This document shows positions 4,680 to 33,492 of a stretch of DNA of 64,000 bases, one piece after another. The notes under the pieces are model-generated. The model was not told where the DNA came from. It was given only the letters and a program-made list of their open reading frames with translations, and did no database searches. The stretch comes from Devosia sp. 67-54 (GTDB taxonomy: Bacteria; Pseudomonadota; Alphaproteobacteria; Rhizobiales; Devosiaceae), in assembly GCF_001899075.1 (NCBI RefSeq), contig NZ_MKVA01000005.1:372001-436000 (forward strand). Direction: 5' to 3'. Both the position numbers and the translations under genes were made by a program. The stretch's first letter is position 1. Each line of letters opens with the position of its first letter.

Positions 4680-4705
4680 CCCCGCACTTTTCCTGGGAGC
4701 AGCTC

Positions 4706-4753
4706 GTGCGGAGCATTCTCGTAGTGGTGGGGCGCATCGGTCACGTGGGGTAG
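4706..4753 (+). CDS. Branched-chain leader peptide (ilvBH attenuator)
   Basis: A 15-codon frame starting with GTG, translated MRSILVVVGRIGHVG, stop TAG at 4751-4753. Seven of 15 codons are Ile, Leu or Val, including a run Ile-Leu-Val-Val-Val. A GGGAG sequence sits 6 bases before the start. The stop codon lies in the loop of a 7-bp hairpin (4744-4762). This is the expected build of a leader peptide whose stalling on uncharged Ile/Leu/Val tRNA controls the downstream acetolactate synthase genes. Confidence 0.85.
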   Translation: MRSILVVVGRIGHVG

Positions 4754-4808
4754 GTCCCCGCGGGAATAGGCTGATGCGCGCAGACAGGTCCCGAATGGGG
4801 CCTTTTTT
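4744..4808 (+). promoter_or_regulatory. ilvBH transcription attenuator
   Basis: Three elements follow the leader codons. A pause-type hairpin (CGTGGGG 4744-4750 with CCCCGCG 4756-4762, loop TAGGT) overlaps the peptide stop. The GGTCCCC segment at 4754-4759 resembles the left arm of the terminator (GGTCCC, 4787-4792) and could compete for its right arm (GGGGCC, 4797-4802), making an antiterminator. A terminator with T-run ends the element. The layout fits ribosome-mediated attenuation; which alternative pairing is used is my inference. Confidence 0.75.
4787..4808 (+). terminator. Attenuator terminator of ilvBH
   Basis: A 6-bp stem GGTCCC/GGGGCC (one T-G wobble) with a GAAT loop, followed immediately by six T residues and ATT. 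It lies 50 bases before the ilvB start codon, so it would stop transcripts before the structural genes. Confidence 0.8.
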
Positions 4809-4857
4809 ATTGCCCGAAATTCCCGGGCGTTGGGTTTGGTGAGGAAGGACTGGAAAC

Positions 4858-25538: not shown

Positions 25539-27223
<1,685 letters not shown>

Positions 27224-30391: not shown

Positions 30392-30820
30392 ATGGAGATC
30401 GTCAACAACCTGCTGTTCTGGCTGCATTTCGCCGGCCTGGCGCTGGGCGGCGTCGCGACCTTCGGGCTGCCGGTGGTCGGCCGGCAGATGCCCATGGCGA
30501 CGGCGGAGACCCGCCCGGTGCTGTTCACGGTGGCGCGCGGCTTGACCTCGCTCGGGCGCGCCGGGTTCGGCGTGCTGCTGGTCACCGGCCTGCTGCTGTT
30601 CTGGCTCAAATGGAACGGCAACGCTCCGTCGATGGCGTGGTTCGGCGCCAAGATGGCGCTGGTGCTGCTGCTGTTGATCCTGCTGATCGTCGCCGGCCTC
30701 ACCTCCAGGCGCGCCGAGGCGGGCGACCGGGCTGCGGGCCGGCGCATGCCGATGCTGAGCGCCATCGGCGTCGTGCTGCTGCTGGGCGTCCTGCTCTGCG
30801 CCGTATTCGCCTTCAATTAG
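30392..30820 (+). CDS. Four-helix inner-membrane protein of unknown function
   Basis: A 142-residue hydrophobic protein with about four transmembrane segments: NLLFWLHFAGLALGGVATFG, GFGVLLVTGLLLFWLKW, MALVLLLLILLIVAGLT and LSAIGVVLLLGVLLCAVFAF. A conserved-looking HF in the first helix and GR in loop 1 recall DUF2269/CopD-like small membrane proteins (compare the gene at 63716). RBS GAGGGGAGACTCGC precedes the ATG. It ends 72 bases before the leuA leader peptide. Confidence 0.8.
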   Translation: MEIVNNLLFWLHFAGLALGGVATFGLPVVGRQMPMATAETRPVLFTVARGLTSLGRAGFGVLLVTGLLLFWLKWNGNAPSMAWFGAKMALVLLLLILLIVAGLTSRRAEAGDRAAGRRMPMLSAIGVVLLLGVLLCAVFAFN

Positions 30821-30840
30821 AGGCATTTGCGACGGGCGGC

Positions 30841-30869
30841 TTGCCAAAGCAATTCGATTCACGCAGTAT
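30841..30869 (+). promoter_or_regulatory. Possible promoter of the leuA leader transcript
   Basis: TTGCCA at 30841-30846, then 17 bases, then CAGTAT at 30864-30869. Both hexamers match consensus only partly. The position, 24 bases upstream of the leader peptide's ATG, is right. Confidence 0.35.
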
Positions 30870-30892
30870 GGGCTTAGTTAGGAACCCAGCCA

Positions 30893-31018
30893 ATGAAGCG
30901 CGCTCGCGCCATTGCCATCGCCCAGGCAGAACAGCAGGCCCGTGAGGCCCGTCTGCTGCTGGCGGCTGGCCTGCTGCTGCTTCCCGCGCTGCTTCTTCTC
31001 CTTCTTATTGGCCCCTGA
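30893..31018 (+). CDS. Leucine-rich leader peptide (leuA attenuator)
   Basis: A 41-residue frame, ATG to TGA. The first 20 residues are basic and Ala/Gln/Glu/Arg-rich; the second half holds 13 leucines in runs of 3, 4 and 6 (LLLAAGLLLLPALLLLLLIG). Codons include both CTG and CTT/CTC, so several leucine tRNAs would be sampled. TAGGA lies about 9 bases before the ATG. It ends 129 bases before leuA, and hairpins follow. This composition and position are those of a leucine-sensing leader peptide; a small membrane protein is the alternative. Confidence 0.82.
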   Translation: MKRARAIAIAQAEQQAREARLLLAAGLLLLPALLLLLLIGP

Positions 31019-31027
31019 GTACCGGCG

Positions 31028-31129
31028 GTCCGCCCTAGGCGCGGACGGGTGGTCAGGGGAGCACGACTGAGAGCCGAACAAGTGATTTGTCCGGCCGTTT
31101 GGGTTTGAGCCAGAGGCTCGCCCCGGCCG
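31028..31129 (+). promoter_or_regulatory. Hairpin region between leader peptide and leuA
   Basis: Hairpin 1: GTCCGC/GCGGAC with one bulge (31028-31046). Hairpin 2: an outer CGGCCG pair (31092-31097 with 31124-31129) enclosing GAGCC-AGA-GGCTC (31107-31119). A second GAGCC at 31071-31075 could pair with the same GGCTC, so two exclusive folds are possible. Hairpin 2 ends 6 bases before the leuA RBS (AGGAAG). No T-run follows, so control may be by Rho, by RBS access or by an unrecognised terminator. Confidence 0.5.
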
Positions 31130-31147
31130 CGGGATAGGAAGACCGAG

Positions 31148-32719
31148 ATGACCACCACGACCACCGACAGCAACAAAGACCACGTCTTCATCTTCGACAC
31201 CACGCTGCGCGACGGCGAGCAGAGCCCGGGCGCCACGATGACGCTCGAGGAGAAGCTGCAGGTCGCCGAAGCACTCGACGAGATGGGCGTCGACATCATC
31301 GAAGCGGGCTTCCCCATCGCCTCCAACGGCGATTTCGAGGCCGTGGTCGCCGTCGCCAAGCAGGTCAGAAATTCGGTCGTCGCCGGGCTCGCCCGCGCCA
31401 TCCCGGCCGACATCGCGCGCGCCGGCGAAGCGGTGCGGCACGCCCGGCAGGGCCGCATCCACACCTTCGTTTCCACCTCGCCGATCCACCTCGCACACCA
31501 GATGAAGAAATCCGAAGAGGAGGTGCTGGAGATCATTGGCGCCACGGTGACGCAGGCGCGCAATCTGATCGACGACATCGAGTGGAGCGCGATGGACGCG
31601 ACGCGCACGCCGATCGACTATCTCAGGCGCTGCTGCGAGCTGGCGATCAAGTCCGGCGCCACCACCATCAACATCCCCGACACCGTCGGCTACGCGGTGC
31701 CCGAGGAATATTTCACGCTGATCAAGACGCTGCGCGAGACGGTGCCGGGCGGCGACAAGGTGATCTGGTCGACGCATTGCCACAACGATCTCGGGCTGGC
31801 GGTGGCCAATTCGCTGGCCGGCGTGAGGGCCGGGGCGCGGCAGGTCGAATGCACCATCAACGGCCTCGGCGAGCGCGCCGGCAATGCCGCGCTCGAGGAG
31901 ATCGTCATGGCGCTGCGCACCCGCGCCGACGCCATGCCCTACAATACCGGCATCGAGTCGACGCATCTGGCGCGGGCCAGCAAGATCGTCTCGGCGGCGG
32001 CGAATTTCCCGGTGCAGTACAACAAGGCGATCGTGGGCAAGAACGCCTTCGCGCATGAAAGCGGCATCCACCAGGACGGCATGCTGAAGAACGCCGAGAC
32101 CTACGAGATCATGACCCCCGCCAGCGTCGGCATCAAGGAAACGACGCTGGTGATGGGCAAGCATTCGGGCCGCGCCGCGTTCAAGGACAAGCTGCGCGAG
32201 CTGGGCTACGACCTCGGCGACAACGCCTTCCAGGAGGCGTTCGTGCGCTTCAAGGATCTCGCCGACCGCAAGAAGCACGTCTACGACGCCGATATCGTGG
32301 CGCTGGTCGACGACGAAGCGGGGTCGGTCGACGACCGCATCAAGCTGGTCGACATGGAGGTGGTCAGCAAGACCGGCGGCGTGCATCGCTGCACCCTCAC
32401 GGTGATGATCGACGGCGACAGGCGGACGGTGAGCTTCGACGGCACCGGCTCGGTCGACGCCATCTTCAACGCCGTCAAGCAGGTCGTCGGCATGGACCCG
32501 CATCTGGTGCTCTACGCCGTCGACGGCGTCACCGGCGGCACCGACGCGCAGGCGAGCGCGCATGTGCGACTCGAGCACAATGGCCGCATCGCCTCGGGCA
32601 ACGCCGCCGAGCCCGACACGCTCGTCGCTTCGGCGCGCGCCTATCTCAACGCCGTCAATCGGCTGATGATCGAGCGCGGCGCGGCGGCGCAGGGCGCCAT
32701 GGAAAGCGCGGCGAGCTGA
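31148..32719 (+). CDS. leuA: 2-Isopropylmalate synthase
   Basis: A 523-residue enzyme condensing acetyl-CoA with 2-ketoisovalerate, the first committed step of leucine synthesis. The HMGL-like barrel starts IFDTTLRDGEQSPGATM, with metal-binding STHCHNDLGLAVANSLAG and GERAGNAALEE; the flexible region has AFAHESGIHQDGMLK and MGKHSGRAAFKDKL. The C-terminal regulatory LeuA-dimer domain (about residues 380-510) carries leucine feedback. Length fits the long bacterial form. RBS AGGAAG is 6 bases before the ATG. It follows a leucine-rich leader. Confidence 0.97.
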   Translation: MTTTTTDSNKDHVFIFDTTLRDGEQSPGATMTLEEKLQVAEALDEMGVDIIEAGFPIASNGDFEAVVAVAKQVRNSVVAGLARAIPADIARAGEAVRHARQGRIHTFVSTSPIHLAHQMKKSEEEVLEIIGATVTQARNLIDDIEWSAMDATRTPIDYLRRCCELAIKSGATTINIPDTVGYAVPEEYFTLIKTLRETVPGGDKVIWSTHCHNDLGLAVANSLAGVRAGARQVECTINGLGERAGNAALEEIVMALRTRADAMPYNTGIESTHLARASKIVSAAANFPVQYNKAIVGKNAFAHESGIHQDGMLKNAETYEIMTPASVGIKETTLVMGKHSGRAAFKDKLRELGYDLGDNAFQEAFVRFKDLADRKKHVYDADIVALVDDEAGSVDDRIKLVDMEVVSKTGGVHRCTLTVMIDGDRRTVSFDGTGSVDAIFNAVKQVVGMDPHLVLYAVDGVTGGTDAQASAHVRLEHNGRIASGNAAEPDTLVASARAYLNAVNRLMIERGAAAQGAMESAAS

Positions 32720-32724
32720 TCGCG

Positions 32725-33492
32725 TTGGCGGCCTATCCGCACAACCGCCTGAAGCAGCGGCTCGGCGCCGGCACTCCGGCGCTGGGCTTCTGGCTCAGCC
32801 TCAACAGCCTGCCGCTCACCGAAATGGCCGCCGGCGCCGGCTGGGACTGGCTGCTCCTCGACATGGAGCACGCCGTCTACACCGACGAGACGGTGGAGCG
32901 GCATGTGCTGGCCGCCCGCCACGGCGGCGACGCCGAGCTGGTGGTGCGCCTTCCCTCGCTCGATGCGGCGCTGGCGAAGCGGCTGCTCGATGCGGGCGTG
33001 CGCAGCTTCATGTTCCCGTTCGTCGAGACCGTCGCCGAGGCGGAGCTGGCGGTCCGGTCGACGCGCTATCCGCCCGCCGGCATCCGCGGCTTTTCCGGCG
33101 CGACGCGGGCCAACCGCTACGGCCGCGACGCCGGCTATCTCACAAGCTACGCCGACGACGTCTGCGTCATCATCCAGATCGAGACGCCACAGGCGATCGC
33201 CAACATCCCGGCCTACGGCAGGATCGACGGCGTCGACGCCATGCTGATCGGCGCCAACGATCTCGCCGCCAATATGGGCCATCTCGGCGACACCCGGCAT
33301 CCCGACGTGATCGCGGCGGTGTCGGGGGCAGGGCGCGCCATCCGGCAGGCCGGCAAGGCCTCGGGCTTCCAGTTCTTCGACGAGCGCGCCAGGACGCTGC
33401 TCGCCGAGGGCTTCACGCTCGCCGCGGTGGCCGGCGACCTCCACACTGTCGCCACCGGCATGGCCGCGCGGCTGGGCGAGCTCGCGAAATAA
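32725..33492 (+). CDS. HpcH/HpaI-family aldolase
   Basis: A 255-residue class II aldolase-type TIM barrel. Signatures: LGFWLSLNSLPLTEMAAGAG, the catalytic-His segment WLLLDMEHAVYTDE, VVRLPS with the pyruvate-binding Arg, IRGFSGATRANRYGR, VIIQIETPQAI with the metal-binding Glu, and GANDLAANMG with the metal Asp. Family members cleave 2-keto-3-deoxy or 4-hydroxy-2-oxo acids to pyruvate and an aldehyde. The start is TTG, 5 bases after the leuA stop, suggesting coupled translation with leuA although the pathways differ. Confidence 0.88.
   Translation: MAAYPHNRLKQRLGAGTPALGFWLSLNSLPLTEMAAGAGWDWLLLDMEHAVYTDETVERHVLAARHGGDAELVVRLPSLDAALAKRLLDAGVRSFMFPFVETVAEAELAVRSTRYPPAGIRGFSGATRANRYGRDAGYLTSYADDVCVIIQIETPQAIANIPAYGRIDGVDAMLIGANDLAANMGHLGDTRHPDVIAAVSGAGRAIRQAGKASGFQFFDERARTLLAEGFTLAAVAGDLHTVATGMAARLGELAK

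Follow-up and report, generated by a model that had tools for sequence, protein, structure and literature searches.

Here, we present an analysis of the region upstream of leuA in a 64,000-nucleotide stretch of DNA from Devosia sp. 67-54 (hereafter, the window). leuA, which encodes 2-isopropylmalate synthase (HMGL-like, LeuA_dimer), is located at 31148-32719 on the + strand. Between it and an upstream gene for a membrane protein (30392-30820; weak similarity to UPF0093 and CopD, both below the Pfam cut-off) lies a short open reading frame (ORF) at 30893-31018 on the + strand. This leader ORF has 41 codons, encodes the peptide MKRARAIAIAQAEQQAREARLLLAAGLLLLPALLLLLLIGP, and has the C-terminal end LLLLLLIGP-stop. 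Thirteen of the 41 residues are Leu, and they are arranged in three runs (codons 21-23, 27-30, and 33-38) and encoded by CTG (seven), CTT (five), and CTC (one). The Leu fraction of 0.32 is the highest among the 177 ORFs of 30-60 residues in the window, of which the runner-up has 0.17; based on the mean Leu fraction of these 177 ORFs, the binomial probability of at least 13 Leu in 41 residues is 1.3e-7. An earlier note on this DNA had described a Leu-rich 41-residue leader with 13 Leu in three runs, written with several codons and in excess of chance, and our counts bear this out; the leuA leader ORF is real. The last Leu run (codons 33-38; 30989-31006, + strand) is the presumed stall site and ends with a Leu codon three codons ahead of the stop codon. 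A promoter-like pair of loose form, TTGCCA and CAGTAT separated by 17 nt, is present at 30841-30869 on the + strand. Of 29 Devosia-group loci, 28 have such a pair with a 17-nt spacer that ends 21-36 nt upstream of the start of the leader, compared with a background match rate of 2.5% in shuffled 80-mers; a scan of 30780-31250 with a stricter sigma-70 consensus returned no promoters. Elsewhere in the window, a gene of the HpcH/HpaI aldolase family (32725-33492) starts 5 bases past the end of leuA, the ketol-acid reductoisomerase gene ilvC is found at 26198-27223, and the Rhizobiales sRNA Atu_C8 of Rfam matches 4699-4819 barely above its gathering score (54.5 versus 50 bits).

Sequence comparison identifies this ORF as a member of a conserved leuA leader of Alphaproteobacteria. 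The leader precedes leuA in all 18 same-genus loci with full-length leuA, including that of the window, and also in 9 of the 11 genomes from elsewhere in the order that have a full-length leuA; a 19th same-genus genome (G013) has only a distant LeuA homologue. Named Devosia loci share the leader of the window, and the leader of Devosia sp. 66-22 (L090) is identical to that of one of the same-genus genomes (L002). A pattern scan of species genomes returned at least 119 matching stretches; among the 80 loci listed, which include Bradyrhizobium, Gluconobacter, Hyphomicrobium, Methylobacterium, and Geminicoccaceae, 76 precede leuA, three are at a contig edge, and one is without leuA. The last of these (L095, 5377-5433) is in a metagenome-assembled genome labelled Syntrophomonadaceae, ends in LLISP-stop, and is followed by 2.5 kb in which leuA is absent. 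A covariance model built on the Leu run and the hairpin that follows it matched 117 of 385 genomes of the class at E 0.01 or better. We examined 60 of these matches, mostly the higher-scoring ones and with near relatives left out, and leuA is downstream of all 60. Conversely, LeuA was found in 182 of the 385 genomes, and 101 of the 150 LeuA places listed for them have a model match within 600 nt upstream; in one genome (G226), the match and LeuA are on different contigs. When we inspected 40 of the 48 LeuA genomes without a model match, 13 had a variant of the leader as judged by eye (L217, L220, L221, L223, L224, L226, L227, L228, L236, L241, L242, L250, and L253). Four of these leaders (L221, L224, L226, and L227) are AT-rich and come from genomes of ~1.3-1.4 Mb; they keep a Leu-rich leader and the hairpin, with CCTC in its 5' arm. 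In a sample of the phylum, 43 of 299 genomes had a match, of which only two, both marginal (E 0.004 and 0.006), were outside the class. One large family within the order (f187), with genomes mostly of 6-7 Mb and possibly Rhizobiaceae, had no match in this sample and accounted for 13 of the 20 misses listed; the leader seems to have been lost or replaced there. In Rfam release 15, no family reached its gathering score in the leader of the window, the single match being to a microRNA family far under its cut-off, and 17 related loci that were scanned gave no match. Among titles and the openings of abstracts, with subscription papers mostly beyond reach, we recognized no report of such a leader in Alphaproteobacteria, although one may well have been published; Vitreschak et al. 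reportedly treated attenuators in proteobacteria in 2004, which would be a likely place for an earlier report.

For the comparisons below, we used two sets of loci. Set 1 comprises 97 leaders, i.e., 70 loci from the pattern scan and 27 from a homologue search of the genus and order genomes. Dropped from the 80 scan loci were those in which the contig ends shortly past the match (L056, L070, and L101), the locus lacking leuA (L095), and those in which the start was not found (L037, L038, L053, and L096) or unreliable (L060 and L091); L060 was kept for the pN/pS and promoter counts. Among the genus and order genomes, no leader was seen at L019 and L029, and L030 is a distant LeuA homologue only. 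L069 was omitted from alignment A3. Set 2 comprises 50 of the 60 class loci; those dropped lacked an identifiable start (L162, L166, L199, and L207) or leader frame (L171, L193, and L215), or had a start 416 nt away (L212) or at most 5 nt from the hairpin (L198 and L208). Three pairs within set 1 are identical (L002/L090, L003/L067, and L083/L108), and at least two loci of set 2 are identical to loci of set 1 (L163 to L106 and L168 to L079).

A recurrent structural feature of the leader, not mentioned in the earlier note, is a hairpin built on the stop codon of the ORF (hairpin A; 31012-31059, + strand), in which CCCCTGA (31012-31018) is complementary to TCAGGGG (31053-31059). The 5' arm is formed by the last sense codon and the stop codon, as CCCC plus stop. 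In an alignment of 50 sequences, 92.4% of the cells in this hairpin are paired, and its covariation score of 0.352 (0.146 in shuffles) is above those of all 500 shuffles and of every slid version. The five basal pairs are invariant in this alignment, in part because the scan pattern fixed them. Loci that are independent of the pattern show changes on both sides: L021, L023, and L024 have TAA and TAG stop codons with TTA in the 3' arm, and L221 and L242 have CCTC with GAGG (CCTCTGA with TCAGAGG). Thus, the stop codon (TGA, TAG, or TAA) and the CCCC or CCTC stretch vary together with the 3' arm. In L221 and L242, the final Pro is replaced by Leu and the 3' arm matches, supporting that the RNA stem rather than the peptide end is kept. 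For the same reason, peptide arrest at a Pro-stop end, as in the TnaC type, is an unlikely cause of the conserved Pro-stop end.

The idea that the Leu codons pair with the Shine-Dalgarno (SD) sequence of leuA was first drawn from the fold of the window, and comparison between loci supports that such a helix (P0) recurs in many, but not all, lineages. Using 34 similarity clusters of the 97 leaders in set 1, we found that the duplex between the Leu run and the SD segment has a mean energy of −17.05 kcal/mol when the partners are matched and −14.19 kcal/mol when they are permuted (z −5.84), and not one of 20,000 permutations reached so low a value. The matched duplexes are also more stable than those with shuffles of their own 3' segment at the same composition (mean z −1.22, P = 2.5e-4, 10 of 34 below −2) and than those with shuffles in which the SD core is held in place (mean z −0.89, P = 0.002); when a stretch of leuA coding sequence served as a decoy, the Leu run gave no signal (z +0.65). 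Similarly, in set 2, the values are −14.58 for matched and −11.41 for permuted partners (z −7.93), and 15 of 50 loci are below −2 relative to their own shuffles (P = 1.1e-5). The strands of P0 differ by lineage; for instance, TGCTCCTTAT pairs with ATAAGGAGC in L202, CTCCTTCGACTTAGC with GCTAGTCGAAGGA in L210, and TTATCTCT with GGAGATAA in L227. When 18 Devosia-group leaders are folded to a consensus without constraints, UCCU from the Leu codons pairs with AGGA of the SD. Loci of the Bradyrhizobium type are without the Leu-codon/SD signal (L031, +0.59; L073, +1.27; L034, +0.52; L110, −0.40), so a different lock may be at work in some members of the class.

The choice of Leu codons points in the same direction. 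We recoded ten leader codons synonymously, keeping the last two and using generic GC-rich weights; the related sequences are not independent. For the Devosia group, the computed SD accessibility was 0.106 natively and 0.40 after recoding (native lower in 26 of 28 loci, P = 1.2e-7); for the others, it was 0.25 and 0.398 (35 of 46, P = 5.0e-7), and for set 2, 0.307 and 0.452 (34 of 50, P = 8.1e-5). The opposite holds in seven of the 50 loci of set 2, where the native sequence is more accessible than 90% or more of its recodings. Masking the stretch that a stalled ribosome would occupy increased SD accessibility from 0.13 to 0.60 in the Devosia group (up in 28 of 30) and from 0.29 to 0.48 in the others (52 of 67), and accessibility was likewise up in 39 of 50 loci of set 2. 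These folding computations predict that the SD is sequestered unless a ribosome in the leader masks the Leu codons. With the ribosome placed on the stop codon instead, SD accessibility was just as high (0.62 in the Devosia group and 0.49 in the others), indicating that a switch of this kind would require fast release of the ribosome at the stop codon. Together with the permutation tests on the duplex, the recoding lends comparative support to a suggestion of the earlier note, namely, that control is exerted at translation initiation.

In the window itself, P0 is only moderately well predicted. Its 5' strand, the anti-SD (31001-31009, + strand), consists of the Leu codons CTT CTT and an ATT codon and is complementary to GATAGGAAG (31133-31141, + strand), which includes the SD AGGA (31136-31139), over nine pairs, two of them G-U; the earlier note had not mentioned this complementarity. 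The helix is present in the minimum-energy folds and has a probability of ~0.42 in one ensemble. SD accessibility ranges from 0.02 to 0.56 across 20 free folds; with the masked stretch, it is at least 0.9 in 28 of 35 folds and 0.27-0.80 in the others. As an isolated duplex, the Leu run and the SD segment of the window do not pair better than shuffles (z +0.38), and 22% of the recodings are as closed as the native copy. The reading for the window leans on its relatives.

Based on these comparisons, which are computational throughout, we consider it likely that the leader is a leucine-sensing translational attenuator, in which ribosome stalling on the Leu codons takes the anti-SD out of play. 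What supports this proposal is the conserved leader, the covarying hairpin A, the Leu-codon/SD helix in many lineages, and the lack of a terminator; we infer that ribosomes stall, that they do so for want of leucine, and that leuA translation responds to this. According to this model, the 5' end of the leuA mRNA would lie a short way upstream of the leader ORF. When leucine is plentiful, ribosomes would complete the leader and leave, hairpin A would form, and the last Leu codons would pair as anti-SD with the SD of leuA, allowing little leuA translation. With leucine scarce, a ribosome waiting on the Leu codons would hold the anti-SD and block the foot of hairpin A, and the SD would be left open for translation of leuA. 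Because the last Leu codon is three codons before the stop codon, the waiting ribosome, for which we used the generally known footprint, would cover the 5' arm of hairpin A; a ribosome waiting further up the leader would still cover part of the anti-SD. The Leu codons would, in this way, be sensor and lock at once.

Two further hairpins lie between hairpin A and leuA. Hairpin B (31073-31095, + strand) pairs GCCGAACA with TTTGTCCGGC and has bases in common with hairpin C; it is partly present in the consensus fold of the 18 Devosia-group leaders, and its support is confined to that group. Hairpin C (31092-31129, + strand) pairs CGGCCG with CCCCGGCCG and adjoins the ribosome binding site of leuA, as the earlier note had stated of a hairpin at this place; six of its pairs are in the same consensus fold. 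The earlier note had also suggested a switch in which two copies of GAGCC compete for one GGCTC. The motifs are there (GAGCC at 31071 and 31107, GGCTC at 31115), but the arrangement is found in only one of 30 Devosia-group loci (two of them duplicates), which is that of the window, and we rejected it as a switch. Hairpin C could nevertheless act as the lock in a translational attenuator with four regions, with the Leu-codon/SD pairing being secondary: a ribosome on the 5' arm of hairpin A would free the 3' arm, GGTCAGGGG, to pair with CCCCGG of hairpin C, a possible pairing noticed by eye, and open it. That hairpin C ends just 5' of the SD fits such a lock, and another lock of this sort may act in the Bradyrhizobium-type loci, which are without the Leu-codon/SD signal. 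However, the changes in hairpin C are one-sided only, the evidence for it comes from the Devosia group, and SD accessibility depends on which codons the Leu run uses. We therefore regard the four-region arrangement as unlikely.

No terminator-like site was found in 30780-31250, and a hairpin followed directly by a run of at least four T is present in only 7 of 97 leaders in set 1 and 2 of 50 in set 2. Thus, the absence of an obvious terminator or T-run, which the earlier note had pointed out, is general among the relatives compared, and we rejected an intrinsic terminator as the regulatory element. The absence would suit Rho-dependent attenuation, in which plentiful leucine leaves an untranslated stretch past the leader that lets Rho terminate before leuA, and a stalled ribosome prevents this. 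An untranslated leuA mRNA could also be exposed to Rho. However, Rho-dependent attenuation leaves the matched Leu-run/SD pairing and the codon choice unexplained, and the stretch from the leader to leuA is sometimes very short; we give it little credence.

The motif CTTA immediately 5' of hairpin A (in the region of 31006-31009 in the window) is near-invariant (50 of 53 second-set leaders), and its conservation seems to go beyond what pairing with the SD needs. As a partner of CTTA, we considered URRG within the 25 nt that precede leuA and discarded it (present in 52 of 150 leaders versus 41.7 ± 5.6 in shuffles). As pairing explains CTTA incompletely, a regulatory protein might bind the leader, an idea put forward for the LEU element of Actinobacteria; the conserved, in-register Leu codons and the stop codon, by contrast, point to translation of the leader, and we consider a protein site very unlikely.

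Within the ORF, pN/pS falls from 0.61 in codons 1-20 to 0.33 in codons 21-32 and 0.21 in codons 33-41 (20 gap-free of 29 Devosia-group ORFs), and the N-terminal part is wholly different outside Devosia and as short as MTFLSILSLRLIGP in Gluconobacter loci. Based on this weak constraint in Devosia and the unrelated N-terminal parts in other taxa, we rejected a functional microprotein. We consider it highly improbable that the leader acts in trans, whether through an RNA that is released or through a small, membrane-like peptide with a function of its own: the pN/pS values leave room for some constraint on the peptide, but its N-terminal part is not kept between taxa, and the trans-acting leader transcript raised in the earlier note is without support because we found no terminator-like site in 30780-31250, or anything else, that would release it.

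The proposed leucine-sensing attenuator resembles several known leaders. In the enterobacterial Leu attenuator leu_leader, a leader peptide with Leu codons controls the leu genes via a transcription terminator. Like leu_leader, the alphaproteobacterial leader encodes a peptide in which the regulated amino acid is abundant; however, leu_leader has a terminator with a T-run, whereas the alphaproteobacterial leader has none in 30780-31250 of the window and no Rfam match at the gathering score. The alphaproteobacterial leader also resembles the LEU element of Actinobacteria, which, according to the text available of Seliverstov et al. (2005; PMC1262725), is a leader ORF with a run of Leu codons before leuA, has a predicted base stem of the Leu codons with the leuA SD, and has a conserved pseudoknot inside this stem. 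Its authors considered classical attenuation unlikely and proposed a protein; the same text reports that the effects of Leu-codon mutations in the Streptomyces leuA leader are not consistent with classical attenuation, and this counts against an attenuator reading (PMC1262725). Both leaders have a Leu-codon-run ORF directly before leuA and a predicted base stem of Leu codons and SD, which in our case holds at the level of the class and moderately for the copy of the window. In contrast, the alphaproteobacterial leader carries hairpin A on its stop codon and is found in Alphaproteobacteria, whereas the LEU element is found in Actinobacteria. We suggest that the alphaproteobacterial leader works like the LEU element, and we do not file it as one, the comparison being with the description of the LEU element and the covariance model having been searched in its own class and phylum. 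Small ORFs with consecutive Leu codons also precede leuA in Corynebacterium glutamicum (PMC4046766) and Mycobacterium tuberculosis (PMC3526491), where they are described as presumed attenuators; the available parts of these descriptions do not discuss pairing of the Leu codons with the SD. Finally, rnTrpL/peTrpL of Sinorhizobium meliloti is, like the leuA leader, a leader of an amino acid gene in alphaproteobacteria. According to the abstract of the report (PMC7298713), its peptide acts in trans, whereas nothing indicates a release site or a role in trans for the leuA leader.

Altogether, we tentatively propose, as a possibility short of probable, that Alphaproteobacteria have an ancestral one-helix amino acid sensor, in which the leucine-sensing codons are themselves the anti-SD of leuA, stalling opens the gene without an anti-terminator or anti-sequestor in between, and hairpin A brings the two strands together. 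If so, codon choice in the leader would have a double purpose, which would explain the use of CTT and CTC rather than CTG beside the leader stop codon in a window with a GC content of 68%. The leader would add a widespread leucine sensor that Rfam release 15 misses in the loci scanned, and it would give a possible answer to what was left unsettled about the LEU element of Actinobacteria. If the same is true in Actinobacteria, these leaders would form a general and largely unrecognized class.
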